Assembly (NCBI GenBank): GCA_910574345.1 | Contig: CAJSZV010000037.1 | Location: 1-32,942 of the forward strand | DNA from: Clostridiaceae bacterium | Lineage (GTDB): Bacteria > Bacillota > Clostridia > Lachnospirales > Lachnospiraceae | Direction: 5' to 3' | DNA length: 32,942 nucleotides | Shown: in pieces, positions 1,425 through 32,942 of the stretch | Numbering within the stretch: position 1 is the first letter of the stretch | Layout: each line of letters starts with the position of its first letter | Position numbers and translations under genes: made by a program | The notes under the pieces: model-generated | What the model saw: only the letters and a program-made list of their open reading frames with translations | The model's database searches: none | What the model was told of the DNA's origin: nothing

Positions 1425-3908
1425 TTATAAAAACTTTTTTGCGTCATCTAAAAGTACTTCTGAAAATTCTTTCAAATATTGTTTCATATGTATAGGTAAA
1501 TTTTCGTTACATAAATTTGAAAGTTTTTTCGACTTATAATCTGGATTATAATCTAAAATTACTTTACAATACTTTGGAAATGCTAATCGACCTTGATTGT
1601 CCAAATTATAGGCATTGGGATATTTCTTATAATGCAACAATTTTTCTATTAAAAAATCTTCTATAATCATTTCAATATGATTATTTAAACCTATTTTCTG
1701 AATATATTTACTTACCAAACATAATTTATCATATTCATCAATCTCTCTAACCGCTATATAATTCAAAATACATTTTACAATTTTCTCTTGTAATTCATGT
1801 GTAGAAATAAAATGTATTGCCAAATAGCATAACGCATTATATTCTTCCTTGTACATAAAATACATCCTCACTCTATTTCCTTGTAATTTAGAGGAATAAT
1901 TGTTTTCAAGATAAGAAAATTCTTTCCAAATTATATCTTCAATAGCATGTTGTTCTGATAAATCAAACTTTTCAAAATCAATTATACTCTCTAAATATAG
2001 TATATCTTCTCGCTTAAAATTTTTATATATCAATACGAAATCTTGCGCACTTATTTTGTAATGAGGATTAGAAAAAAAATTCTTTTCCTTTATTTGAAGT
2101 TTCATCCTATAATATTCGCCCTTAAATACATTAATTAATGTATTTCTTATATAGTTCTTGTGTTCAGAAAATTGAGAATATAAAAGTTTATTATCATATA
2201 TAAACATAATTGCATCTAACATATTTCTTTTAACCTTCTCATATTCTGATTGCCCCGCCAAAATGACTTTATTCTTAAAAATATCTTGTTCAATCTTATA
2301 GATACTTTCAAATGATTCAATAATATCCTGAGAATAAATATTTCTTGTACATAACCTTTGTAAAAAAACATAATTTTCTCTAATTTCAGCAGGCAATTCA
2401 TAATACAATTCTTCAAATCGAAAATTTTTCATTTCCGAAGTCATCGAATCAATAAACTCATCATTAAATAAATTAACATTTCCATATGCCATCTGACCAT
2501 TTATACTATTAAAATAATTCGTATATGATGTAATAGTCAAAAAAACAAAATATCTATTAATCTGACAAAAATAATAAAGTATCCAATCGTTATCCTCTTT
2601 TGACCAAGACAGCAAATCTGTATATAACAAATAACTCTCTTCTAATCTACCTACCGCATATAATCCGTATGCTGCATCATACCATTCCTTAAGAGAATCA
2701 TAGTTTCTTGTCAAAAATTTTTCAATTTCCTCATATTCGCTCCAAAATACCTCATTACGAATAGTATGTTCTTCCATACCATTATAAATATATCCAGCAT
2801 CATGAATTCCTTTTATATTTGATTTATCCAATACTCTCTGAATAACATTAAGTTTCAATTTATAATCTTCATCCAATTCATTTACTTTACTTAATAACCC
2901 ATAAAACACCTCTATATAAGATGCTTTGCTGTCTCTGCTAACAATATAGTTTTGCTGATCAATATAATATTTCCCTTCAAACAACGTTTCTATATCTCTA
3001 GCGCGAACATACTCAAAAAAATTTAGCCCTACTAATTTTTCATATAAATATTCAAATAAGTTTTTATCATTTTTTAATACATCAGCCTTATTATAACTCA
3101 CAATTTTTTCTAAAACTGCAATATATTTATCCTTGAACTCTCCGCTTTTCACAAAGCAATTGGTATCAATAATTCTGATCCCACGTCCCTTATAATACGT
3201 TATCATTTCATTAGACAGTTCTTCTTTTCCAGTATAAATGAAAATAGGCTCAATAAATGTATCTCCCTGAACCTGCTTAACCCAATTTAAAATAAGTTTA
3301 ATATTGTAATCATTTAATCCATAACCTATAAATACAATCAGATTAGTTGCAATAATAGTTTTCATGACTGTATCAATAAGAACATAATCCTTCTCATAAT
3401 CTAAATAATCTTGTTCTTTTAAAACAAATTTGTTATTTTCAAAATCACCATGTACTTTTAATATATATCTTTTTGTAGGTGTCACAGATATTTTTTCATC
3501 ATGGTTGATTACACTATAATTTATACCATATTTATTCGCCGCTTGTTCTAATAAAGTATCATAATTTGTTGTTAGTATGTGATATGGATTTAATTGCATA
3601 ATCAAATCATGAACTTCATTAGGCTTACAATCACTAGAAAATGCACCATTTATCTTTTCAAAATACTCTGTTTCACTCTTATTATCATAATATATCTGTG
3701 GTATCCGTAAATATTCTTCTGAAGAAAAAATTGCTTTTCCTTTTGCATCTAGTTCATATTTGTAATTCAACTCATCTGCCATATCTTTGACTAAATCATA
3801 CCAACTTGGATAATTTGAAACTGCAGATACTCCAGCACCTACAAAAAAAGCTAACTTCTTCTTTTTCTTATATTCCAAAATATCTTCAACTAATATATTA
3901 ACGTCCAT
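1425..3908 (-). CDS. SIR2-domain protein, putative antiphage NADase
   Basis: An 827-residue protein. Residues ~1-270 are a SIR2 fold: GAGVS at 24-28 (nucleotide loop), TTNYD at 113-117, KVHGD at 151-155 and GYGLND at 195-200. N115 and H153 occupy the places of the catalytic Asn and His of defence SIR2 NADases such as ThsA and DSR2, so NAD+ cleavage is expected. Residues ~280-827 are rich in aromatic and Lys/Glu residues, look helical, and match no family I recognise; by analogy they would sense phage or mediate oligomerisation. Start: an in-frame TTG at 3923 is possible, but GGGAG lies 8 bases before the ATG at 3908. The gene is far richer in A/T than its neighbours, has its own promoter candidate and terminator, and sits between the helicase and DUF6674 genes, so it is likely acquired cargo. 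The SIR2 call is firm; the defence role is inferred. Confidence 0.85.
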   Translation of the reverse strand: MDVNILVEDILEYKKKKKLAFFVGAGVSAVSNYPSWYDLVKDMADELNYKYELDAKGKAIFSSEEYLRIPQIYYDNKSETEYFEKINGAFSSDCKPNEVHDLIMQLNPYHILTTNYDTLLEQAANKYGINYSVINHDEKISVTPTKRYILKVHGDFENNKFVLKEQDYLDYEKDYVLIDTVMKTIIATNLIVFIGYGLNDYNIKLILNWVKQVQGDTFIEPIFIYTGKEELSNEMITYYKGRGIRIIDTNCFVKSGEFKDKYIAVLEKIVSYNKADVLKNDKNLFEYLYEKLVGLNFFEYVRARDIETLFEGKYYIDQQNYIVSRDSKASYIEVFYGLLSKVNELDEDYKLKLNVIQRVLDKSNIKGIHDAGYIYNGMEEHTIRNEVFWSEYEEIEKFLTRNYDSLKEWYDAAYGLYAVGRLEESYLLYTDLLSWSKEDNDWILYYFCQINRYFVFLTITSYTNYFNSINGQMAYGNVNLFNDEFIDSMTSEMKNFRFEELYYELPAEIRENYVFLQRLCTRNIYSQDIIESFESIYKIEQDIFKNKVILAGQSEYEKVKRNMLDAIMFIYDNKLLYSQFSEHKNYIRNTLINVFKGEYYRMKLQIKEKNFFSNPHYKISAQDFVLIYKNFKREDILYLESIIDFEKFDLSEQHAIEDIIWKEFSYLENNYSSKLQGNRVRMYFMYKEEYNALCYLAIHFISTHELQEKIVKCILNYIAVREIDEYDKLCLVSKYIQKIGLNNHIEMIIEDFLIEKLLHYKKYPNAYNLDNQGRLAFPKYCKVILDYNPDYKSKKLSNLCNENLPIHMKQYLKEFSEVLLDDAKKFL

Positions 3909-3937
3909 ATAAATATCTCCCAAATTTTCTTTATTTT

Positions 3938-4005: not shown

Positions 4006-4917
4006 CTATAAACTTTCCTCTTTTCCTTTTCCCTTTGAAATATCCGGCTTTTCCGGCGCTTTCTGCCCATATGCCTTCTCCCGCATCTCGGCAAGTTTCT
4101 CTTTTACGGAAATACGCCCTCTGGGACTGTCTGCCAGCCTCCTCTCTTTCCCATGCTCCGCTATCTTTTCCGATACTGCCCGGTTAATCTGCGGTTTAAA
4201 AGGCACATCCGCCACAGCTTCCGCATCACGCCCCATTTCCTCTATGTCCAGTTCCTCCTGCTCCCCGTCATTTTCCGGCTCATCGTCCATATCAATTCCA
4301 TCGCCGCCCTTTTCGTCCATGTTTAACAGGGCATTTAGTTCTGTCAGGCGTTCCAGCTTCTCCGCAAGCTCCGCTTCCTGTGCAAATGGCTTTGTGACCT
4401 CCACCTTTGCGGTTTCAAGCTGATGCTCCACGTTCTCCAGTTTCTGCGCCACCGTTTCCATTCTCCCGGTCATGCCCTCTAAGGCATTGCTTAACCTCTG
4501 TAAATTCCCCAACGGATCAGTGCCGATTTCCACCTCATGGCTGATGCTGCCCTTTAAGTTGACTGTAAACTTGGAAAAGAACGAATCAAAGGAAACGCTC
4601 ATCTTAAATCCCTGATACTCCCCGATTGTGACTGCCATATTCGGCTGTTTTGCGCTCCGGCACATATCAATCAGCGCTGCCCCGGCTTCCTTTTTGTCCG
4701 TATATACCCGGTTGCCGATTTTTATGGAGAAAGTGTCCTTGTCCGGGAATTTATTCTGTGCGTAGGTCTGAATGTCGGCACGATACCCTGCAAGGCGTTC
4801 CTTCATGGAAGCAATCTGCACCGGGTAATGCTTCACGATATTGTCCTCTAAGCGGTACTTCTGGCTGGTGTGGTTCGCCTTTAACAGCTTTAGCTTGGAC
4901 ACCTGAATATCTAAATC
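4006..4917 (-). CDS. Methylase-like/SNF2 conjugative helicase, exon 3 (C-terminus)
   Basis: This last exon encodes 303 residues, beginning DLDIQVSKLKLLKANH. That is what normally follows NPYIKEKM (the end of exon 2) in ICE helicases of this family. The open frame continues upstream to 5115, but those extra 66 codons read through the intron 3' end (domains V-VI) and are not protein. The exon carries a coiled-coil stretch (VAQKLENVEHQLETAKVEV), an acidic linker (GIDMDDEPENDGEQEELDIEE), then a basic tail, GRISVKEKLAEMREK ... GKEESL, shared with the DUF6674 protein. Exon 2 ends on a complete codon at 7471 and this exon starts on a complete codon at 4917, so splicing preserves the frame. A terminator at 3971-3996 follows. 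Confidence 0.85.
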   Translation of the reverse strand, partial: DLDIQVSKLKLLKANHTSQKYRLEDNIVKHYPVQIASMKERLAGYRADIQTYAQNKFPDKDTFSIKIGNRVYTDKKEAGAALIDMCRSAKQPNMAVTIGEYQGFKMSVSFDSFFSKFTVNLKGSISHEVEIGTDPLGNLQRLSNALEGMTGRMETVAQKLENVEHQLETAKVEVTKPFAQEAELAEKLERLTELNALLNMDEKGGDGIDMDDEPENDGEQEELDIEEMGRDAEAVADVPFKPQINRAVSEKIAEHGKERRLADSPRGRISVKEKLAEMREKAYGQKAPEKPDISKGKGKEESL

Positions 4918-4969
4918 ATGAGGTAAGCACAGTCTGTCATCAACTTCGACAGTACCATACTCCCTCCTA

Positions 4970-5003
4970 AAACCGTACTTACACCTCTCAGCGTATACGG
5001 CTC
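4970..5003 (-). other. Domain V of group II intron 1
   Basis: A 34-nt hairpin beginning GAGCCGTATACGC, with a GAGA loop region and a closing arm GTACGGTTTT. It keeps the AGC triad and lower stem typical of the catalytic core. It lies 15 bases after the maturase stop codon. Confidence 0.85.
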
Positions 5004-5017
5004 GCCATAAGTTCAAC

Positions 5018-6910
5018 TTATCGTTCTTCATCACAGGAATGAATTTTCTCATGGCACGTTGGGCATACTGCAAGTGTTTTCCGCCTGCGTTTCCGCATAA
5101 GTTTCTCCCACTCACTGTTACCCTTAAGACTTTTCAGCTTTTTTACCTGATGAATTTCCAAGTCTGTACAATAACCGCCACATAACTCACACGTTTTGGT
5201 TTTCAACTTCCTTGCAAGGCTGTTTGGTCTGTCATACCGCTTATACTGCGGCAGTACCTCAACCTGACCCGCGATAGAATTATCCCTCTTGCCATAGCCC
5301 TGATTGTAAAATACAGAAGTCTTCTTCCCCTGCTTCGTTTCATAGCTGACTGTAAAATCTCCATTCACTACATACTTCTTTTTGATTTTGGAAACTTTTG
5401 TTTTGTACTTGAATGCAAAAGTTTTCATCATGCTGTATTTCATTGTCCTGCCAAACTTTCCTATTACATAGGCATTGTCAGCAATACAGTAATAATTGAA
5501 CAGCCCTCTGACCTTTGCATTATAATCGCTTAAAATCTCAATGTCGCTCTTATTCAGAACTTTGCCACTGTGCATGACTTTCCATTTTTCATTGCCATTT
5601 TCGTCAGATACAATCCTGATTGCCCCATATTCAAGCAACTTTTTAATCCAGTTTTCTTTCGGCACATACAGCTTCACTACTCCGCTGAACGGTCTTGTCT
5701 TCACTCCGTCTTTTCGGCGTTTAATGCTCTCATTCCTCGATACCTTAATTCTGTAGCCAAGAAATTCAGCACACTCACTTGTATGTGTAATCTTTGTTTT
5801 CTCGTCCGAAAGCGTCAGGTTTAATTCTTCCGCAAGGAATTTCTTTACTTCTGCCTTTATGGTTTCCGCATCTTCCCTGCTTCCAATAACTCCAATCAGA
5901 AAATCGTCACAGTATCTTGTATACTGTATCTTCTTGAAGTCTGTATCCCGTGCATCATATCTGGGCAGTTTTGTATACACTGCCCTCAAATCCCTGATTT
6001 CCTTTGCACGGCGTTTTCGTTCCTCCTCACTGATTTCGTTCCAGTCTTTGGCATATTTCTTTTTCAGGCGTTTTGCCCTGCCCCTTACACTTTCATATTC
6101 ATAAGAAACTTTACGTCTGTCACAGCTCCCTACATCAAACCGTTCTTTCAATCCCTGCATAAACTCGTCTAACTCATTCAGGTAAATATTTGCAAGTATT
6201 GGACTGCACCCCGAACCCTGCGGAATGCCGAAATATGTTTTGTTGTATGTCCACTGTTCCATATATCCTGCTTTCAGGAATTTCCATATCAGATTCAAGA
6301 ATGCTTCATCTTCTATCCGTTTCCTCAAAATACGAATTAACACTGCATGGTCAAAACTGTCAAAACACGCTTTAATATCGCCCTCAACAAACCATTTAGC
6401 GCCTGTAAAGGTATTCCTAATCTGTGTCAGTGCTGTATGGCAGCTTCTGTTCGGTCTGAAACCGTGTGATTTTGTGGAGAAACTTCCCTCATAGATACTT
6501 TCCAGTATCATTCTGACTACTTCCTGCACCAGCTTGTCATCAGCGGAAGAAATACCAAGCGGCCTTTTCTTATTGCCTGTTTTCTTCTTGATATACTCAC
6601 GTCTTGCAGGTTTTGGCTGGTAACTCTGGTTTCGCATACTCTCTATGATTCTGTTAATCCGAGCCATGCTGATACCATCAATGGTCATGCCATCAACTCC
6701 CGGTGTCATACTGCCTTTGTTGGCATAAATGTTTTGGTATGCCAGCAGGTAAAATTCCGGGTTGTATAAGTTCCTGTATAACCTCTGGTACTTATACGAT
6801 TTTTCCTGCGATTTCTCGCCTAAGCTTTTCAATACGTTAATAGGATTTCTCAATGCCTCACGCACCTTCCTTTCTTTGTATTTTCCAAACTTACTGCTTC
6901 CCTTCGCCAT
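5018..6910 (-). CDS. ltrA: Group II intron 1 reverse transcriptase/maturase (HNH type)
   Basis: A 630-residue intron-encoded protein. RT signatures run in order: NKGSMTPGVDG (~65-75), KKRPLGISSADDKLVQ (~115), GFRPNRSCHTAL (~150), FVEGDIKACFDSFDH, GIPQGSGCSPILANIYLNEL (~235) and YCDD at 333-336. A maturase (domain X) region follows, then from residue ~574 a zinc/HNH-like endonuclease (CELC, LEIHQVKKL, CPTCHEKIH). It would bind its own intron RNA, assist splicing, and copy the intron into new DNA targets. YCDD in place of YADD keeps both catalytic aspartates. The start has only a weak ribosome site (GGGAAAG), as is common for intron ORFs. It ends just before domain V, meaning it sits in domain IV. 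Confidence 0.93.
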   Translation of the reverse strand: MAKGSSKFGKYKERKVREALRNPINVLKSLGEKSQEKSYKYQRLYRNLYNPEFYLLAYQNIYANKGSMTPGVDGMTIDGISMARINRIIESMRNQSYQPKPARREYIKKKTGNKKRPLGISSADDKLVQEVVRMILESIYEGSFSTKSHGFRPNRSCHTALTQIRNTFTGAKWFVEGDIKACFDSFDHAVLIRILRKRIEDEAFLNLIWKFLKAGYMEQWTYNKTYFGIPQGSGCSPILANIYLNELDEFMQGLKERFDVGSCDRRKVSYEYESVRGRAKRLKKKYAKDWNEISEEERKRRAKEIRDLRAVYTKLPRYDARDTDFKKIQYTRYCDDFLIGVIGSREDAETIKAEVKKFLAEELNLTLSDEKTKITHTSECAEFLGYRIKVSRNESIKRRKDGVKTRPFSGVVKLYVPKENWIKKLLEYGAIRIVSDENGNEKWKVMHSGKVLNKSDIEILSDYNAKVRGLFNYYCIADNAYVIGKFGRTMKYSMMKTFAFKYKTKVSKIKKKYVVNGDFTVSYETKQGKKTSVFYNQGYGKRDNSIAGQVEVLPQYKRYDRPNSLARKLKTKTCELCGGYCTDLEIHQVKKLKSLKGNSEWEKLMRKRRRKTLAVCPTCHEKIHSCDEER

Positions 6911-7470
6911 GTGGGCGGCTTTCCCGCATCTGGTTTTACAGCTTTCCCTGTTATTTCAGGTTCCTCAGACTACTATGGAAGCTCTGTTGCCATGCCCTTT
7001 TACGGGTTTAGGCAATCTCCGTTTAGTCTAATCAAAACAATAGCTTTCCGTATTGTCGGGTACGACTTTCGCCATTTACACACTACTCATGGTTGCCCTG
7101 TCTTGAGTATTCCGCAGTTATACAAAATGGAAATACAACTGCCAAGACACTGCACGTTTCAACTCCTTTCGTGCAGGGACAAAGCTATGTCCAGGCTCTG
7201 GCTATCGTTCAGGCAATCTAGCTTTTACCCTCATATACGAATTTTCATTCTCGCAATAAAGACGCTTGTCAGGAAATTTTAATCACTTCTCTATTGCCTG
7301 CCTATAATAGACAACAACATGCTACACTCCCTGTTTTGTTTCCAAAATCAGATAAGTTGTAGAATGATAGGCTGTGGATTTCTCCACGTTAATACTTTTA
7401 CCTACTCCTTGCTAAAGGGAGTATTCTGACTAGACCTCACCGCCAATAAATTAGCGGTTTACGGACGCAC

Positions 7471-8156
7471 CATCTTTTCTTTTATGTAGGGATTGCCCGT
7501 TGCCAGAGCTTTCACCTCGGCATAAGTGAGAGCCGCTTCGTCTATGTCCTCACAGCTTCTGACCGGGGATTTGCTCGTCATAATCTGCCCGATGAATTTT
7601 TGCTTATTCTCGATAAGCTGCCAACTGTACGAATCGAACGTACCTTCTGTTACATACCGGAATATTTTCACCTTGTCATTCATGTTGCCCTGCCTTAAAA
7701 TCCGCCCTTCCTGCTGTTCAATGTCGGACGGACGCCAGGGCACATCGAGGTGGTGTAACGCAATCAACCTGTCCTGCACGTTGGTTCCGGCACCCATTTT
7801 TGCGGTTGAGCCTAACAAAAAACGAACCTGCCCGCTTCTTACCTTTGCGAACAGCTCCGCTTTCCTTGTTTCCGTATTGGCGTTATGGATAAAAGCTATC
7901 TCATTCTCCGGCACTCCTTTCGCCATGAGCTTATCCCTGATGTCCTCATATACATTAAATGTCCCATCTCCCTTCGGTGTGGATAAATCGCAGAAGATAA
8001 GCTGCGCCGATTTCTGCTCTTTTGTATGCTCCCAAATCTCAAACGCCTTCTCCACACAGGTTGTGGCTTTGGAGTTTTCTTCATCGGGAAGCATATCATT
8101 GATGAGCCGCTGGTCTAACGCTAACTTTCTTCCATCGTTGGTTATCTTTAATACCG
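7471..8156 (-). CDS. Methylase-like/SNF2 conjugative helicase, exon 2 (helicase C-lobe)
   Basis: This exon of 686 bases encodes the second RecA lobe of the SNF2-type helicase: [15 protein letters not shown], then [19 protein letters not shown], then the arginine-finger motif VI as [11 protein letters not shown] (about residue 2690 of the joined protein), and [18 protein letters not shown] at the end. Its first base completes the codon split by intron 2 (G from exon 1 plus CG), and its last codon is ATG at 7471. The open frame extends from 8250 to 7459, but the first ~31 codons belong to domains V-VI of intron 2 and the final VRP-stop belongs to intron 1. Without both splicing events the helicase would lack motif VI. 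Confidence 0.88.
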
Positions 8157-8207
8157 ATAGGTAACGGTCTGAACTGGCTTTACAGTTCTCGCCGCTTTCC
8201 CCCGGTT

Positions 8208-8244
8208 CGCACCGTGCATGACAGTTTCCCATCACACGGCGCTC
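8208..8244 (-). other. Domain V of group II intron 2
   Basis: A hairpin from GAGCGCCGTGTGATG through a GGAAAC loop to CATGCACGGTGCG. It is typical catalytic domain V, here with a slightly extended base stem. It starts about 10 bases after the intron ORF stop. Confidence 0.85.
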
Positions 8245-8253
8245 CATCAATAA

Positions 8254-10164
8254 TTAGATTGCAATAGTATTATCCAAAGAACTTATTTCTGTGTTTCCAG
8301 CTAGGTTTCTCAACTCATTCAGTTTGCGTAAATCTATGGTGTCTTTGTATTCGGAAATATACTGTGATATTGTGTACTGCTTTGTCGCATGGATTAGCCT
8401 ATGGATGTCCTCATGCACGATTACCAGATTTCTATATTCATCTGTACCGCCTTGACAGCGTGGGGTTTTATGGTGGCAGTGGATGTCGCTGTATTCCAGT
8501 TTTATCCCTGTTACTGCACATTTCCCATACTGCCCGGCATAAAGTGAAATCCTGTTGTCCGCATACTGTATGCTCCTGTTGCTGACAGGGTTCTGCATGA
8601 GTTTCAACAGCGTAAAGGTGTCTATCCCTAAATTATTGTGGATTTCAGCACGCCCTTCGGCTGTGTATTTATTGACAGACTTTTTCTTACACTTAGGGAT
8701 TTTGTTCTGTACATACCCAACCGGGGCTACTGCATAGCCGCTTATAAATCGGATTTGCTCGCTTTTCCCATAGTTCATTTTCACAGCTTTTGATATGTTT
8801 GGCACTCTCTTTTTCCGCTTTTTATAATACTTAACGGATTTAAAATTTTTCCTCATACGATTTTTGAATACAGCCGTTGCCTGGAATGCTATCTTTCGGC
8901 AGTCAAGGCATATCCGGGTAGCTATTTTATAATAATTGTGTATGCCCATGACTTTTGAATTGTAGTTTTGTATCATCTTATACTGCTCTTTGCCACTGTC
9001 CGGCTTCTGTATGCGCTTTATCTGCTCCACCAGCTTCTTTGCCGCCTTTTTCACAGCCTTGTCGCTCATACTGCTGACAACAGTGTATTTATTCCTTTTC
9101 CGATGAACCTTTAACTTAAATCCAAGAAAGTCCGAATAGTGTTTCCGCAAGTTTACTATCTTTGATTTTTCGGGTGAGATGTCCAGTTTCAGCCGTTCTT
9201 TCAGCCAGCCTTTCACCGCATGGAATGTCCTGACGGCGGCGTCATAACTCCTGCAAAAGATTTTGAAGTCATCCGCATACCGCACAATCCGCATTTCCTT
9301 TACATTGGTTTTCTTTAATGCTTCCATTGCGCCGCTCCTGCTGACCGTGCCGTTTTTGGTGGTGGTTGTGTAGTATTCATACCTTGTCGGCATGTTTTCC
9401 CAGTTGCTGCTGACCCACCAGTCCAGCTCATTCAGCACAATATTGGACAGCAGCGGCGACAAAATACCGCCCTGTGGTGTTCCTTTCGTTGGATAACAGA
9501 CGGTCTTGTCCGGCATTTTGACCGGGGCTTTTAACATCTTCCTTATAATCACTAATAACTGCCTGTCCTGTATTCCCATTGTCCAAATCTGTTTTAACAG
9601 CTTTGAGTGGTTGACGTTATCGAAAAATCCCTGTATGTCTATATCCACACAGTAATGCAGGTTGGATAACTGCATATTCCTGTGCGTCTGGGCGATAGCA
9701 TGTTCCACACTCCTGTTTGGGCGGAACCCATAGCTGTGTTCATAAAACTTTGCTTCACAGATTGGCTCCAAAACCTGCAAGATACATTGCTGTATCAGGC
9801 GGTCATACATTGTGGGGATTCCAAGCGGCCTTGTTTTGTCGCTCCCTTCTTTTGGGATTTCTACCCTTTTTACTGCTTTTGGCTGGTAATCCTTAAATTT
9901 ACGCTGGATAATCTGCACGAACTCGCTTACTTCGATTCGCTCAATATCTTTGATATTCATATCGTCTGTACCATACGTTTTACTCCCGGCATTGTCTTTG
10001 ATGTTCCTATACGCAAGTTTTATATTGTTTTCACAAGTGATATACTGCATTAGGTTCCTGAATTTCCCGCCGTCTTTGCTCTTTTGGTACAGCCCGTCAT
10101 AAATATCCTGCATATCGTAGTATTCGTTGTGCCTTAGCTTCTTGTTTTTCAGTTTCTTTGTCAT
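8254..10164 (-). CDS. ltrA: Group II intron 2 reverse transcriptase/maturase (HNH type)
   Basis: A 636-residue intron-encoded protein. RT blocks: NAGSKTYGTDDM (~58), KTRPLGIPTMYDRLIQQ (~110), YGFRPNRSVEHAI (~145), CVDIDIQGFFDNVNH (~168), KGTPQGGILSPLLSNIVLNEL (~228) and YADD at 296-299. Domain X follows, then a C-terminal HNH endonuclease from ~549 (CAVTG, HCHHKTP with H564/H565, GGTDEYRNL, HEDIHRLIH). Role: splicing of intron 2 and target-primed reverse transcription during homing. AAAGGAG lies 9 bases before the ATG, a much stronger site than that of intron 1. It differs clearly in sequence from the intron 1 protein, confirming an independent arrival. Confidence 0.94.
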   Translation of the reverse strand: MTKKLKNKKLRHNEYYDMQDIYDGLYQKSKDGGKFRNLMQYITCENNIKLAYRNIKDNAGSKTYGTDDMNIKDIERIEVSEFVQIIQRKFKDYQPKAVKRVEIPKEGSDKTRPLGIPTMYDRLIQQCILQVLEPICEAKFYEHSYGFRPNRSVEHAIAQTHRNMQLSNLHYCVDIDIQGFFDNVNHSKLLKQIWTMGIQDRQLLVIIRKMLKAPVKMPDKTVCYPTKGTPQGGILSPLLSNIVLNELDWWVSSNWENMPTRYEYYTTTTKNGTVSRSGAMEALKKTNVKEMRIVRYADDFKIFCRSYDAAVRTFHAVKGWLKERLKLDISPEKSKIVNLRKHYSDFLGFKLKVHRKRNKYTVVSSMSDKAVKKAAKKLVEQIKRIQKPDSGKEQYKMIQNYNSKVMGIHNYYKIATRICLDCRKIAFQATAVFKNRMRKNFKSVKYYKKRKKRVPNISKAVKMNYGKSEQIRFISGYAVAPVGYVQNKIPKCKKKSVNKYTAEGRAEIHNNLGIDTFTLLKLMQNPVSNRSIQYADNRISLYAGQYGKCAVTGIKLEYSDIHCHHKTPRCQGGTDEYRNLVIVHEDIHRLIHATKQYTISQYISEYKDTIDLRKLNELRNLAGNTEISSLDNTIAI

Positions 10165-10842
10165 AGAACATCACTCCTTTCGGAGCAAACTTTTTGTCTT
10201 GCTCGAACCTATGGTGATAATTCCTATTGCAAATCTGACTACTGACTGGAGGCTATCCCTCCTCACGCCTTATTATTGCGTGTATCATCAGTACTGTGCC
10301 TCCACTTTCATCACCCGCAAAGACGCTTATATGATTCGTCATCACCACCTGCAAATGGGCAGGTGTCGGGTAACTTACTACGTTCCGATAATCTTATCCC
10401 AATCCCTGAAAAAAAAACTTCAAGGATTTCAATATAGTTTTAGGTTCTGCTTTAAGCCTGCCAGCTTGATGCCACCTGTAACGGCATAAGGTATTTCATA
10501 ACATGCACTTTTACTTTACCTCACTGGCTCCACGCCCGTGGAATAGACATTTCTATCTATGCGACATATAGACTTGTACGTTCGCAGATATGTCAGTCTT
10601 TTCAGACATTCTAACCATGACTATATATAGACCTCCGACCTGTCATATACAGCCGGCACCTCTGCCGGCCTTTCCACAGCTCTGCCTGTTTGGGTATACT
10701 TCAGCCGTCCTCTCCGTGCTGTGAGCCGTGAACTTTATCCACTCGCCCAACGGGGTATTAAGGGAAGCGTTTCAAGGCGTTACCCTGTCATTCCACTTCT
10801 CAGATTATCAGTTATCCTGATGTGCTTTTAACTACTGCACAC

Positions 10843-13800
10843 CAGTCACAGCTTTTGTCACGTTTTCCTCGTGGTTTGTAGCTGTAACGTATCGCTCACG
10901 CATATTGTCGATGTTCGGCTGCACTTTCCTGTCCCTGACTGCCTCCGCCCTGTCCGCAAGGGACTGAACCATGTCCTGCTGGTACTCGCTCGGCTTTAAC
11001 ACAATATTTTCATAATCCGCTTCCGGCACAGGCAGCTTTAACATATCCGGTGTCTGAATGTCGGCACTCTCCTTAAATAACGCAATCAGCTCTGGAAGAT
11101 TGAAAAACTTCGCAAATCTCGTCTTTGCCCGGTATCCAGTACCCTCCGGCGCAAGTTCTATGGCTGTCTGAGTTTCCCCGAATGATGCCGCCCAACTGTC
11201 AAAATGCCCTAACCCCAACCGCTGTAAGGTGTTGTACTGGAGATAACGCATATTGGTGTATAATTCCGTCATGCTATTTGAGATTGGCGTACCCGTCGCA
11301 AATGTGATGCCCTTCCCTCCGGTCAGTTCGTCCATGTACTGGCACTTGGCAAACATATCCGAGGATTTCTGCGCTTCCGTCTGTGCGATGCCCGCCACGT
11401 TCCGCATTTTTGTGTATAAAAAGAGGTTCTTATAATTATGGCTCTCGTCCACAAACAGCCGATCCACGCCCAACTGTTCAAAGGTCACAACATTGTCCTT
11501 CCGGCTGGAATCATTTAACCGGCTCAACCTTGCGGACAGTGATTTCTTTGTTTTTTCCATCTGTTTAATGGAGTATCGCTCTCCATTTTCCGCTTTGAGC
11601 GCTTCGATTGCCATTTCAACTTCCGTTATCTGCCTTTCAATCATCGCCATCTGTCTTTCGGTGGAAAGCGGGATTTTCTCGAATTGAGAATGTCCGATAA
11701 TCACAGCGTCGTAATCCCCGGTTGCGATTCTGGAGCAGAACTTTTTCCGGTTGGCGGGTTCAAAATCTTTCTTGGTTGCCGCTAAGATATTCGCACCCGG
11801 ATACAGGCGCAGAAAGTCACTCGCCCACTGCTCCGTCAGGTGGTTCGGCACAACAAATAAACTCTTTTGACACAATCCTAATCTTTTACTTTCCATTGCT
11901 GCCGCAATCATTTCAAAGGTCTTGCCTGCCCCCACGCAATGGGCAAGCAGCGTATTGTCCCCGTATAACTGATGCGCCACAGCGTTAAGCTGGTGCGGTC
12001 TGAGTACAATGTCCGGTGTCATGCCGGGGAATTTTAAGTGCGAACCGTCATATTCCCTCGGTCTGGTGGAGTTGAAAAGCTCGTTATACTTTGCACATAA
12101 ATCCTGCCTGCGCTCCGGATCACGAAACACCCAGTCCTTAAAGGCTTCCCGGATTGCTTCCTGCTTCTGGCTTGCAAGCATGGTTTCCTTTTTGTTGAGG
12201 ACTCTTTTTTCTTTCCCGTCCTCTGTCACAATGTCAAAAATACGGGTGTCACGCAGATTTAAGGAATCCTCTAAAATCCGATATGCGTTTGCCCGCCCTG
12301 TTCCGTAGGTCATATTGACAAGTGCGTTTCCCCTGTCCGCATTTTTCCCCTTCACGTTCCACTGCCCGGTCACGCCTGAATACTGTATGCCCATTGTCTT
12401 ACGTTCAAGCAGGTATCCCGGCGTTTCAAAGGTTTCACGCATGAAGTCCTCAATATATTTTGTGGAAATCCATGTTGCGCCGATACGCACCTCAATCTCC
12501 GATGCGTCAAGCTCCTTCGGCTGTACGCTTTCCAGTGAGGACACGTTAATGGCATATTCCGGGTGGTTTTCTGCAAAGGTTCTCGCCACTGACAGCTTCT
12601 CCCGCACGTTCCCGCTTAAATACTCGTCTGCGGTTTCCCATTCCTCTGTGACCGGGTTCTGGAAGATTACCCCGGCAAGCTCCTTTGTGATTTCCTCCAC
12701 GCTCTTGTCCGCAAGCTCCGACATATAGGCTAAATCCACGCCCGCCTTCTCGCTAAGCGATACCGCCAGCGCTTCACTGGCTGTGTCCACGCTCGTCACA
12801 ACTTCCTGCTTTTTAATGGTACGCTTCGTGAACATATCCGCTTTTCCAATGAAGTTCCCCTCATCGTCCAGATTTTCAAGGGAACATAACAGGCAGTAGC
12901 TGGAATCCTGATTGAACGCCCTTTTATTGGTCTGTGAACTGATAAGACCGAATTTCTTGGAGAAATCATCGTATAACTGATTCAACTCCGTCTGTTTGTT
13001 TTTAATCATTTCATCCGGGTATTCTTCCAACTGGAAGTTTATCAGTTCCTGCGTACAGTCCCGGATTGCCACCATGCCCTTCATGCGCTGCTCCGCTTTC
13101 TCCGAAACGTCCACAGGCTTCATAATGGAATTTTCCCGGTAATACACTTTATCGTCCACTACGGTATAACTGTAATTCTTCACGTCCGGATCGGCGGGTA
13201 TGTTCTCCCTTGCCAGCTCATCATCAATCTCATTGAAATCCGCCTGCTCGATGCTGCCCTCCACATAAGAGAGCGCATGTTTAAGCTGCGCCGACAGGGG
13301 AAGGGACGTGTCCGGCAGACAGGCGCTTTCCATGCCATGCGCCCCGGAAACCATCTCCATTTTTCCGAGTACCATTTCCGGGTGGTCTGCGAAATACTGG
13401 TTTATCACGATACCGTCTTTTTCCGTCAGATGCACCCAGTCCGGTTCAATATCTAACACCCGGTCACGCTTCTTTAAAAATAAAATATCCGAAGTGACCT
13501 CCGTACCCGCATTTTCCTTAAACGCTGTGTTCGGAAGCCTGACCGCCCCCAATAGTTCCGCCCGCTGTGCAAGGTATTTCCGCACTTCCGGGTTTTTCTT
13601 ATCCATAGTCCCCTTTGAAGTGACAAAGGCAACGATGCCGCCCGGACGTACTTTATCCAAAGTCTTTGCGAAAAAATAATCGTGTATGAGGAAGTTATGC
13701 TTGTCATACTGTCTGTCAGACACTTTATACTGTCCGAAAGGCACATTTCCCACCGCCACGTCAAAAAAGTCATTAGGATAGGTGGTATTCTCAAAGCCTG

Positions 13801-16800
13801 TGATTTGAATGTCCGCATGAGGGTAGAGCTGTTTTGCGATACGCCCGGTTATCCCGTCAAGCTCCGCCCCGTAGAGCCTGCTCCCCGCCATTTCCTCCGG
13901 CAGACAGCCATAAAAATTCCCGATGCCTGCGGCGGGATCTAACACATTACCTTTTGTAAATCCCATTTTCCCCACTGCGTCATAGATTGCCTGAATGATG
14001 ACCGGGCTTGTGTAGTGGGCATTTAACGTGCTTTCCCTTGCGGAAGCGTATTCCTCCGGGGATAACAGGCTCTTTAATTCCTGATACTCATTCGCCCAGT
14101 TCGCTTTGGAAGAATCAAAGGCATCGGCAAGACCGCCCCAACCCACATATTTTGCTAAGACTTCCTGTTCCTCCGGTGTGGCAGTGCGGCGTTCACTTTC
14201 AATCTTTTCAAGGGTTCGTATGGCTTCCACGTTCTGCCGGAATTTCTCTTTCGGCGCAAATCCTTTCCCAGTATTCTCTGCTTCATTGAAAGAAATGCGG
14301 TAATTGACTGCGCCTGTTTTATCAATCTCCGGCTGTTTTTGTGATGCTTTTTCCGGCTCTGGCGAATTGCCCCCGGTCAGCGTTTCCACATCGCCCATGA
14401 CCTGCTGGATAAACGGGCTGTTTTCCAAAGCATTTTCATCTACAACCTGCCCGTCCACAATGCCTGCTTTTTCCAGACCTTCCCGGACAGCCTGAGTGTC
14501 AATGTCGGGAAAATCATCTTTTATAGCAACATCTTTTGTGCCTGAAATATTTTCCGTTCCCGGCTGTTCTGTTTCCTCTGTAACCTTTTCCGGCTCTGGC
14601 GCAATATCTTTTGTTTCTTTCTGCCCTGTTTCCTGTAAATTCTCTGTCTGTAAACCTTCATTGAGCTTATGGCAGAAAACATCCGCTTCCTCCGGTGTGT
14701 CAAATGTCGGCACTGTGCCATCGCCTGTTACATAATAATCCTGCGTTTCGCTGTCCCACACCGCATAAGGCTCTGTAAAGGCATCCGAAGTTTCCGTAAC
14801 CGTAAAACGTGTTGTTTCTTCCTGTTCTGGTTCTTCTGTAAGGTTTTCCGGCTCGGCATCCGGGAGAGGTTCTTCCTTCTTTTCTTCTGACAGCTCTGCT
14901 TCAGAAACTTCCGCAGCGTGTCCTTCCCTCTGCTGTTTTGGCTCGCTCTCATAACGTGCCGCATACTTCTGAGCCTCCTTCAGCAGAGCATCCATTTCCA
15001 CCGCTTTTTCCGTATTGCCGCTTAATGACTGCATCAGGACATAATCAGTAGCTTCTAAAAACAGAGTATCATAGACCGCCTTGCCCTCTAAACTCCTGCT
15101 GTCATCCTCTATGGCAACCGCCCCGGTATCCTCATTCCAGCCGACCACATCTTTCATAGAAAGCGCACCGCAGATTTTTACCACAGCGGACATCTCCGCA
15201 AGCCTTTCCATCAGCGCTTTTTCATTGTCGCTGGCTTTATTTTCCGGTTCGGGACTTTTGGATTTTTCCCCGGAAATTTCCGCTTCCTGTTCCGGTACAG
15301 CAATTTTTTCCGGCTCCCTGTCACGCTCTATGTACCGCCTTGTCTGGTTTGTAAAACCGTCCAGCACAGCCGGGTGGGACGTGACGAGGTAATCCCTGGT
15401 CTGCCAGTCAGCGGAAGGGACAAGGCTTTTTGCCCACTCCTTATTGTCGGGGGAAAACCGCCCGTCATGGGATAAGTGCATGATTGTGTTTGCAAGGACG
15501 ATTTCCACACGTTCCTTCCCATACTGCCGGATAACGCCCTCTGCAGTATCCCCCGGAAGGGTGTAACCGTCAAATTTCTCCGCAATCGCTTTTTCTATGG
15601 CATCTTTACATTCTACCCGGACACCATGCTCCAGCTTTTCCTGCTCCCGGCGCATGGCTTCCTCCGCCTGCTCTTTTTTGTACTGTGCAAAGGCTTCCTT
15701 TCCCTTCGGCGTAAGGTATTTATCCGCATTGACAAGCTCCCTGATGCGCTTCTCCACCACGTTCCATTTTAAAAGCACTTTTGCGTATGGATCGCCTATC
15801 CTGCCTTTCCCCAGTTTGATTCCTTTGGAATCGTGCCATTCATCGCTCCGGTCTGAACCGATTAGGGCGGGAGAACCGCCGCCCGTCCCGTACTCATTTT
15901 TAAGGAAGGCAATATTTTCTTTCTTATCATGCCCTTCCATAAAATACTCATAGATACGGAACTGCCCATGATGATAGTTGCTGCCGCCTGTCAGACGCTC
16001 ATCTATCTCATCCTGTGTAATAAAATCCTCATGCAGCACCTCCACGCTGTCCTGTACCGGGTATTCCGTTTTCTCTGTACTCAAATCCGCAATCTCTGAA
16101 AGCAGATGCTCTGGCTTTTTCACATACCGCCACCTGATCTGCTTTTCCCCGGCTTCAATCTGCTCTTTTGCGCGGGAAAGCTCCCCGGCGATGACATCAC
16201 GCCCCTCCTGCGTGGATAAAAGCTCGCACAGGATTGTCATGCTCTCCGGGTGGTTGTGGCTTTTAATCGGTATGCTCTCCGGCGCTTCCCCGATACCGTC
16301 CCAAAAGAAATTGAACAGGTCATTTGACACCCTCTGACGTTCCACCGCATCCACAAGGAACACTTCATTTGCGCCCATGTAAGAGCCACTCTCCACCATA
16401 GAACGGACAACGCCCTCTATCTCCTGCCAGTCCATTAACGCAACCGGGTTTTCTTTTGCGGACATCCCGTAGCCGATGCTCATGCCGGATTCATTGAACC
16501 AAACGGAAATGGGATTGCTGCCGAAGTCAAAGCCTTTCCCGGTAGTTCCATATTCATTTTTCAGAAACTCCGCCATTTCCTCCGGCGTTTTGCCTTGCTG
16601 GTACTTGGCGTAAATGCGGCTCCTGCTGTTATCCCGTCCACCCCCTGTCCGTAAAATGGCTTCAAGCTGCTCCTGCGGCAGAGAAAAAGCGGCGGGCATG
16701 GTATAGTTCTCTCCTGCCTGCGCCGCTTCTATCGTGCCGATCTGTTCCTCTATGGTGGGGAATAAACTAAGCTGCTGGTAAACCTCCGTTTCCTTTGGTT

Positions 16801-18472
16801 CTTCCCACTGCGGTATCTGCCCTTCTTTCAGATATTCTCCCTTTTCCATGTAAAAGGCGATGCTGTTCCTCACATCCTCCCATGATACAGATGCCTCCGC
16901 TGTCCGGTTTAAATAACTTCCCCTCCAGACGGTCAGACCGTTTTCGTCCGCCCTATACCCGGCTCTTTCCTCCCCTACATTAAACTCGGTAAATTCCTTA
17001 TGCCTGTAACTGTTTTTGATATATTCCGTCTGTTTATCCTTATCCGGCTCGAAAAGCATTACCCCGGCAATATCCGGGCATTTATGCACCATAAATTCAT
17101 CAAACTGCAAGATGCCTTTCTCTATTTCAGACAAAGAAAGACCGGGCAATGGTTCTCCACTGTCCGGCTCTGGTAAATCCTTATTTTCAGTTTTTTCAGT
17201 CGCTCCTTCACTTACAGGCTGTATACCAGTTCCCTCAGTACGATTTCCTCCGCCGAGTGCCTGATGCTGTTCATCTTCTGAACCCAAAGCATCTGGTTCT
17301 CCGCCTTGAGTTTTTCCGTCACTCCCTCCTGCTTCATCATCTGCCCGGTCAGCAGTTCCATCCTCTGCTCTGCCTGCTCCTGAATGGTCAGAAGATGCTC
17401 TTTCAGCTTCCCTTTCAGCAGAAGCCCGGTGTAAATCCCCTTCTTGTGTTCCTGTAAGTAATTCTTCCTCATCAGTCCGTATTTCGTCAGTGTCCCCTCC
17501 GGCTGTTCGTCCATCTTTAACATCGGTATCAGATAATCCCCGTTCTTCTCGTAAGTCAGATTCATTATTTTTTCCCCTTTCCCCGGCGTTCCCGGTCTGT
17601 GTGGTAAGTTGTATGTCCTCCGTTTTACTTTCACGCTTTAAAGCATTATAGCGTGTGCCAGAGGTATTTGCAAGTCCTTTTTCGACAAAATTTCTTGATG
17701 CTTCCTTTCCGGCGATTTCCCTGTCATACGCCCCGATTGCTTTGCCAATCTCCATAAGCACAGGTTTGGATAAATCGGATATGCTGTCACCGATGTGCGA
17801 CAGTGTTTCGATTGTATTAAACTCATGGATATAGGGGAACTGGATTTCCTCTGCCAGCTCCGCATCTTCCATGCCGCACCGCTTTAAAACAGTGTAGGCG
17901 ATGCTGTCCGCCAGTGTTTCCCGGACACGGACAGCAATATTCAGTTCGTCCAGTTCCTCCAGAAAACTTCCCTCTTTCAGATATTCCATATCCGAAGCAA
18001 GCTCCCCATAACAGTCCTGTGCAATCCGGGAAGCAATCTCCCTGATCCTGTCCGTAAACCCGGCTTCTTTGTCAGTGTCCCCGTAAATCCCTTCCAGACG
18101 GTCAAGCACCGCTTCCTGATGTTCCCCCTTCATCTCCCAAAGCCTGGGGAAACGCCCGATGCGCCTTGCCTTATGCACGTCCGATATGTCAAAGACGTAC
18201 CGCAGTCCGGTGTTGGGACTCCCTTCTTCATCAAACAAGGCGATACCCTTTGCCCCTTTGTTTACCCAGCAGTGCATTTTTTCATTCCATATCTCTATGG
18301 AAGCACAGGCTGTAGCATCCGGTCTTTGGGCATAGATAAGGAGCTGGTCTTTGAACGGGTATTTGTAGAGCCTTGATGCTGTGTTCAGATATTTCTTCCA
18401 GCTTTCTTCATTTCTCGTCACTTCCCTTGATGTTTCTGCGGAAAGTATGGAAATTAAGTCATATTTTCTCAT
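10843..18472 (-). CDS. Methylase-like/SNF2 conjugative helicase, exon 1
   Basis: This exon encodes the first 2543 residues of a protein that reaches about 3075 after splicing. It starts [18 protein letters not shown], typical of the family, with GGAGG 6 bases upstream. Residues ~1-130 are an ArdC-like N-domain ([17 protein letters not shown]). Residues ~280-440 are a low-complexity acidic linker that overlaps tnpV. Two LPD-like modules each carry FLKNEYGT (~640 and ~870). A second acidic, Pro/Glu-rich linker follows. A Rossmann N6-methylase-like domain has [11 protein letters not shown] and GNVPFG (~1570) in place of NPPY, so methylation is doubtful. A SNF2 first lobe has GAGKT (~2180), DESH (~2340) and [12 protein letters not shown]. 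It probably processes or unwinds transferred DNA with topoisomerase III. The frame stops two codons beyond 10843, inside intron 2. Confidence 0.9.
17212..17565 (-). CDS. tnpV: TnpV-like transposon protein, overprinted on the helicase gene
   Basis: A 117-residue frame on the same strand as the helicase but in another register, covering helicase residues ~303-420. It reads [18 protein letters not shown], then [70 protein letters not shown] and [11 protein letters not shown]. That is the full layout of TnpV, a small protein of unknown role carried by Firmicutes mobile elements. An in-frame ATG 23 codons earlier exists, but AAAGGGG lies about 8 bases before the ATG at 17565, where the family start also falls. 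In the same bases the helicase frame is disordered Gly/Asp/Glu-rich sequence, so the TnpV frame appears to be the constrained one. Confidence 0.8.
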
Positions 18473-32832: not shown

Positions 32833-32942
32833 ATGAGGTAAGCGCCTCGTGGACGCTCCCTCCCGAACCGTGCGGGCACCTCTCGATGCACACGGCTCTC
32901 CATATGCCATCAACTAACAAAATCAGTCTTTTCCGTGTATCT
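32833..32942 (-). mobile_element. Group II intron 3 (3' end only), interrupting the coupling protein gene
   Basis: The last 110 bases of a group II intron: domain V at 32865-32898, then a GGGAGGGAG linker, a domain VI hairpin and the terminal CTTACCTCAT. The same terminal ten bases and a very similar domain V/linker occur in intron 1, so they are relatives. The 5' part and any maturase gene lie outside the window. Confidence 0.85.
32865..32898 (-). other. Domain V of group II intron 3
   Basis: A 34-nt hairpin from GAGCCGTGTGCATC through a GAGA loop to GCCCGCACGGTTC. It fits the consensus closely and carries the same loop type as intron 1. Confidence 0.85.

Follow-up and report, generated by a model that had tools for sequence, protein, structure and literature searches.

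A probable dual-coding locus: an old tnpV gene nested in the linker of a DarB-like antirestriction gene

The locus described here raises the question of whether one stretch of DNA serves two protein-coding genes at once and, if it does, what each frame contributes and how the arrangement arose. In the window, by which we mean the whole 32,942-nucleotide stretch that was analysed, a minus-strand frame running from an ATG at 17565 to a TAA ending at 17212 (17212..17565; 117 codons plus stop) encodes a protein of 117 aa, and it lies wholly within a much larger ORF (18472–10832) on the same strand, from which it is offset by two bases. The first-pass annotation had taken this frame for a complete TnpV-family protein, which is borne out by a match to PF14198 across the full profile (positions 1–111 of 111; 146.3 bits against a cut-off of 27, E = 4.2e-43). 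Because our own TnpV profile drew on nested as well as standalone sequences, we took independent support from this curated Pfam model. Across a 50-row alignment of nested and standalone TnpVs, 12 columns are invariant, among them Y5, G9, D10, P14, W94, and E112. We consider it likely that the locus is dual coding: that an old tnpV gene is nested in an antirestriction gene, is made together with it, and has left the nest several times; it may encode a partner of the antirestriction protein. The two frames, their shared phase and place, the Shine-Dalgarno pairing, the selection on TnpV, the absence of the linker where there is no nest, and the presence of TnpV directly beside the host in one un-nested lineage can be read from the sequences compared here; internal initiation, coproduction, the reading of label changes as exits, and a role as partner are what we infer from them.

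The surrounding gene had been described as a helicase, with a suggested link to transfer. Its 5′ part, delimited by the ORF and its domain matches (10832..18472, minus strand), consists of an ArdC-N-like domain, the linker, DUF3849, an adenine methylase, and an SNF2 helicase; the ORF has 2546 codons, and its 3′ end reaches slightly into the first of two group II introns. DUF3849, ResIII, and SNF2 matched above cut-off, and the Eco57I methylase match reached 20.2 bits, below its cut-off of 25.3. Over host residues 1158–2479 there is a match to phrog_10089, a DarB-like antirestriction family, with 1252 bits, and we class the host as a DarB-like antirestriction type of protein rather than as a transfer helicase. 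Its first 290 residues had no Pfam match; the N-terminal domain (17714..18466, minus strand) resembles plasmid proteins annotated as ArdC-like ssDNA-binding at 25–39% identity, and we call it ArdC-N-like on the basis of alignment and the annotation of these plasmid relatives.

The introns, whose ends are approximate, divide the rest of the host gene. The first (8158..10900, minus strand; RF02004 at 10816–10624 and RF00029 at 8244–8151) carries a reverse transcriptase ORF (8254–10164, minus strand; TIGR04416, 347 bits), and the host exons around it stop near 10901 and restart at 8157. The second (4918..7470, minus strand; RF00029 at 5005–4918) carries a reverse transcriptase ORF with RVT_1, maturase, and HNH domains (5018–6910, minus strand), between host exons that stop near 7471 and restart at 4917. 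Beyond the second intron, the host gene closes with its 3′ end (4009..4917, minus strand), which shares 97% identity with the corresponding tail in L003, one of the relatives that have the host gene without introns. Elsewhere in the window, the 3′ part of a further group II intron lies at the edge (32833–32900, minus strand; RF00029, 57 bits), and possible defence cargo is encoded a short way downstream of the host, in the form of an 832-aa protein with a SIR2_2 match (1425–3923; PF13289, 76 bits).

The nested gene has what appears to be a ribosome site of its own, as had been proposed. A Shine-Dalgarno-like stretch, GGGGAAAGGGG (17574..17584, minus strand), precedes the ATG, and its predicted pairing with the 16S tail has a duplex energy of −8.1. 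We compared nested starts, picked by rule and including TTG or GTG in 13 of 126 cases, with out-of-frame ATGs further downstream in the host genes: the nested starts had a median of −8.1 (n = 126) versus −2.9 for the 2764 control ATGs (Mann-Whitney p 2e-42). Pairing of −5 or stronger was found at 83% of the chosen nested starts, or at 98% if any start within 60 nt is counted, and pairing was weak at 17% of the chosen starts; the host genes' own starts have a median of −10.7. The Shine-Dalgarno pairing supports internal initiation at the nested ATG. Ribosomes would most likely start at tnpV's own Shine-Dalgarno stretch and ATG on the host messenger, and TnpV would be made whenever the host protein is made.

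To determine how often the nest occurs, we used the host N-terminal domain, not TnpV, as the survey query; loci L001–L081 had been chosen by likeness to TnpV and are therefore uninformative on nest frequency. Among 146 genomes of the order, this search gave 43 matches in 35 genomes (E ≤ 1e-15). For 39 of these matches PF14198 followed directly downstream on the same strand, and the phase was the same each time; host identity among these nest-bearing matches goes down to 27–31%. The matches that were not counted, four in all, include one at a contig end (L141). In L173 the host is broken 34 residues after the N-terminal domain and TnpV is absent; L171 has a weak TnpV (20.9 bits) in the correct place and phase; L175 (G155:C1), a host that is built differently, has no nested TnpV; and L172, one of the 39, has a decayed TnpV copy in a broken host frame. 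Each of the 35 genomes that the host domain hit at this threshold also has a TnpV somewhere.

Extending the search phylum-wide with a host-domain profile (398 genomes) gave 24 full-length matches, and all 24 carried the nest in the same phase. There were also 13 loci with partial host-domain matches, one of which (L210) has a weak nested TnpV in the same phase (25.7 bits); no nested TnpV was found at the other 12, of which 11 are ArdC-like matches and one is a distant host (L211). Distant nests occur in Cohnella herbarum and on plasmids of Virgibacillus (PF14198, 76.5 bits), Listeria seeligeri (62), Ruminococcus albus (32), Anaerococcus prevotii (27.9), Aerococcus tenax (27.7), and Streptococcus agalactiae (18.6); the most distant nested copies fall below the PF14198 cut-off of 27 (L171, 20.9 bits, E 4e-4; L179, 18.6 bits, 2e-3). 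A scan of viral contigs with TnpV returned one locus. TnpV distances follow host-domain distances closely, with rho 0.92 over 129 pairs and 0.80 in the 66 distant loci (Mantel p 0.001). Taken over the Bacillota genomes searched, these comparisons indicate that the nest is old and present throughout the host family.

As a side observation, several loci (L041, L042, L045, L046, L014, and others) have a second, weak host-domain match of 28–44 bits without TnpV. These matches hit the C-terminal part of the host N-terminal domain and lie further along the same elements, possibly marking a second ArdC-like protein.

We looked for interruption of the TnpV frame in close homologues whose host frame is intact. 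An intact in-phase TnpV was found in 132 of 137 host-domain hits, a count in which some places appear twice, and none of the five exceptions (L005, L141, L072, L173, and L172) is such a case; L005 has a frameshift ahead of TnpV, and in L072 a frameshift within TnpV shifts the host frame too. Conversely, the host frame is free of stops in 157 of the 158 TnpV hits with an in-phase upstream host domain (145 distinct sequences), the sole exception being L068 with one stop. Among the 85 TnpV hits without an upstream host domain, the host-equivalent frame contains stops in 83 (70 distinct sequences); the remaining two, L023 and L025, have lost their 5′ end. These two stand outside both classes, as do L005 and L072, in which a frameshift puts the host in another phase. 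The stop count skipped 13 loci, most of them for a longer copy of the same place, and some places are still counted twice. We did not use two earlier figures ("0 stops in 126" and "0 of 4623") since the nested class behind them was partly defined by a stop-free host frame, which makes them circular.

The two truncated copies each have their own context: nested TnpV lacks its first seven codons at a junction near 10001 in L023 and near 3101 in L025, and the DNA upstream in L025 finishes with what we take to be the last part of a serine recombinase gene, which would fit insertion of a mobile element at this point.

The two frames bear very different constraints. Over tnpV, the host frame is an acidic low-complexity linker (17213..17563, minus strand), assigned from composition bias and without residue-level constraint; it is rich in the residues GEDART and has a net charge of −21 in the window, as the initial description of a low-complexity acidic linker had it. 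Codon-substitution analysis of both frames, which had been suggested as a check, used 679 pairs from 65 unique nested sequences (L023, L025, L068, and L071 were omitted from 69). In the TnpV frame, dNN/dSN was 0.24 [0.16–0.32] and dNS/dSS 0.09 [0.04–0.18]; in the host frame, dNN/dNS was 1.61 [1.12–2.50] and dSN/dSS 0.60 [0.35–1.11]. A set of 126 sequences gave the same pattern at 80–99.5% identity, and TnpV-frame omega rose to 0.27–0.43 at larger distances, the two ratios being 0.42 and 0.27 at 65–80% identity. For standalone TnpVs, the virtual second frame gave 0.93 and 0.73 at 65–99.5% identity. These ratios indicate strong purifying selection on the TnpV frame; the host-frame intervals reach 1 or more and, together with the virtual-frame comparison, leave the host frame without clear residue-level constraint.

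What the linker does keep shows in its composition. At third positions where T would create no stop, the share of T drops from 0.28–0.30 in the single-coding parts of the host and 0.245 in standalone TnpV to 0.135 in nested TnpV. The host frame over TnpV has 21.8% D+E and 0.0% Cys, versus 8.4% and 3.1% in the virtual frame, and carries a net charge of between −22 and +6 (median −12). As judged from these sequences, constraint on the linker is limited to openness and a hydrophilic, mostly acidic make-up. The host frame would then serve over tnpV only as a flexible, acidic, stop-free linker from the ArdC-N-like domain to the rest of the protein.

Hosts without a nested TnpV provide a complementary comparison. 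The acidic linker is absent from all four that we found: L241, L245, L175, and G308 (L211 and L254, which are the same gene). In L241 and L245, from two genomes of one genus, a separate TnpV gene ends ∼66 and 86–95 nt before the host start, and only 7 to 11 residues separate the host N-terminal domain from the next domain. In the nested host L164 the same next domain lies ∼250 residues on, which is ∼240 more, part of this extra length being a further short domain after the acidic stretch. L175 has a free TnpV ∼1.6 kb upstream of the host frame, and its joint is short and nonacidic; in G308 we detected neither a TnpV nor an acidic linker. With the linker missing from un-nested hosts, it looks like a footprint of TnpV. 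On the suggested check of whether linkerless hosts also lack TnpV, the nested copy is absent from all four, and L241, L245, and L175 carry a separate gene. The earlier idea that the linker may exist because it tolerates a second frame agrees with our finding the tolerant linker only with a nested TnpV; what changes is the direction, TnpV being the residue-constrained gene.

We were then left with the question of how nested and standalone copies are related. A TnpV tree of 72 nested and 28 standalone copies required 8 label changes, at least 4 of them forced by starred branches; with nine long-branch rows dropped (91 rows) it required 7, at least 6 forced, and with later copies added (53 nested and 43 standalone) 14, at least 8 forced. 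All of these trees are unrooted, are built on few columns, and leave many forks open. A single clade of nested TnpVs was rejected by the AU test, both with the 91 rows (p 0.0006) and with 96 rows from which no long row had been dropped (p-AU 5e-95). The nest occupies one place and one phase, and standalone TnpVs have stops in the frame that the host would need in 83 of 83 counted hits and in 26 of 26 loci of a separate set. Entry into the nest would consequently be hard and exit easy, and we read the label changes mainly as exits, a direction that goes beyond the trees alone. TnpV copies would thus have left the nest several times and become free-standing in other mobile elements. The host is not a requirement for TnpV to exist, as 20 of the 55 TnpV genomes of the order have no host match at E ≤ 1e-15, although three of these (G023, G114, and G163) hold a diverged host.

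The genome that carries the window sequence (G001) has 11 TnpV copies above cut-off; of the eight loci examined, one is the window copy and seven are un-nested, and among the remaining copies G001:C43 is nested. In L035 (15368–18028) and L038 (15421–18081), a free-standing TnpV followed by a 639-aa ORF lies 5–7 kb beyond the nested TnpV; we presume from its resemblance that this ORF is a ribosomal-protection tetracycline gene. Such tetracycline-gene elements have been reported as inserted in snf2 genes, according to the part of PMC9815147 available.

Exits from the nest do not by themselves say where TnpV began. One account, to which we give close to an even chance, is that TnpV was once an independent gene next to the host and was later taken up by the linker, not born there. 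The lineage in which TnpV is a separate gene upstream of the host is what capture would predict, standalone copies are widespread across the TnpV tree, and a good fold is predicted for TnpV, in contrast to the disordered-like composition of the linker. Set against this, the two un-nested hosts L241 and L245 fall within the nested ones in a host-domain tree rooted on ArdC-like proteins, albeit with weak branch support (83/89); the TnpVs of these two are placed apart in the TnpV tree; and an inserted standalone copy would generally break the host by its stops. The other account, which we hold tentatively and put well short of even, is that TnpV is at home in the antirestriction gene as its conserved partner, was perhaps born there, and that the free-standing genes are repeated escapes.

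As to function, we tentatively favour, at somewhat under an even chance, a role for TnpV as partner of the antirestriction protein, over a regulator or an excisionase. The basis is gene position: TnpV accompanies the host gene both in the nest and in one un-nested lineage. In this view TnpV would be a small helical protein working alongside the antirestriction protein as DNA enters a new cell. An AlphaFold model of TnpV shows a beta hairpin and five helices (pLDDT 88.5, pTM 0.68). Searching the PDB with this model gave no match at E ≤ 0.001, and a profile search of solved structures gave a designed protein (E 0.03) and an ATP synthase subunit (0.89). PADLOC and NCBIfam gave no match to TnpV, and its PHROGs match is a family of unknown function.

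Position could also point to a regulator, that is, to TnpV or its translation tuning the output of the giant host protein. The nested gene lies on the host strand with a strong internal Shine-Dalgarno stretch, in the un-nested lineage the host gene is immediately preceded by TnpV, and Cro-like repressor genes adjoin two standalone copies on the same strand (L091 and L099). Residue-level selection on nested TnpV is, however, about as strong as on standalone TnpV, which indicates that the protein itself matters, and most standalone copies have no host gene nearby; we regard a regulatory role as doubtful.

Distinctly unlikely, in our view, is that the transfer messenger yields TnpV as an excisionase or recombination directionality factor, with excision thereby coupled to transfer. 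The idea has a history, in that TnpV of Tn4451 was postulated, in the available part of PMC3158075, to act in excision because of its likeness to lambda Xis; a cited paper, by its title, names TnpX alone as required in Tn4451/3. In our set, a large serine recombinase lies within 500 nt on the same strand in 7 of 34 standalone TnpVs, one of which overlaps it by four bases, but in 0 of 135 nested copies, the loci covering part of each element. One standalone copy follows a Mob_Pre relaxase gene at a distance of 27 nt, and its contig also has a tyrosine integrase. The hairpin-and-helices model and the two PDB comparisons leave an excisionase fold unsupported, an absent match being no proof.

There is practically no chance that the TnpV frame is open only through a favourable base composition of the linker: synonymous shuffles of TnpV do keep the host frame open in 9.5% of cases on average (for a single gene), and the window host gene does have another alternative-frame ORF of 114 aa, but the PF14198 match (4e-43), omega values of 0.09–0.24, and phylum-wide recurrence all stand against it, the stops found in the other frame of standalone TnpVs tell against a frame artefact behind PF14198, and the second ORF fails the same tests. 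That ORF, which lies inside the methylase part of the host (13818–13474), served as our negative control. It is 57–92% identical in 33 loci where the host is 93–99% identical, and the longest open stretch is shorter than 114 codons in 22 of these 33; not being kept in such close relatives, it is spurious as a second nested gene.

TnpV of Tn4451, Tn6104, and related mobilizable transposons belongs to the same family, PF14198, which is matched at full length here; there it is a free gene on a small transposon, sometimes beside a large serine recombinase, whereas here it is nested. To our knowledge, long same-strand nested genes in bacteria are few. Small same-strand genes nested in another frame are exemplified by comS inside srfAB and Rz1 inside Rz, whose proteins are unrelated to TnpV and which lie outside this conjugative-element family. 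We found no account of the TnpV nest in the open-licence PMC literature. The host resembles the DarB-like and ArdC-N polyvalent proteins, which combine an ArdC-N header with a dyad of (adenine) methylase and SNF2 helicase, as far as given in the available part of PMC5512222; a text search of that part found no mention of TnpV or of an overlap. The closest precedent we found, as it appears in the available part of PMC3533173, is ardD, a small antirestriction gene inside tniA of Tn5053: it too is a small mobile-element gene within a larger gene, but it is antisense there and same-strand here, and the antirestriction activity is that of ardD, TnpV being known here from sequence alone. Nested genes and both protein families were thus already known; the widespread hidden dual-coding site is, as far as the open-licence PMC literature goes, new.

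Annotation can miss a nested gene of this kind. Four plasmid records with an annotated host have gene tables without TnpV, and two records that list the nested TnpV do not list the host, although these tables are known to be incomplete. If TnpV is indeed at home in the antirestriction gene, the family is misnamed and its main form is largely missing from annotation, and one overprinted site would have fed an autonomous gene family into the mobile-element pool several times. The old nest, found in 24 of 24 full-length hosts phylum-wide, offers a lead on the function of a family that has no established one, and it illustrates how another gene can leave its footprint in a giant conserved protein as a long linker.
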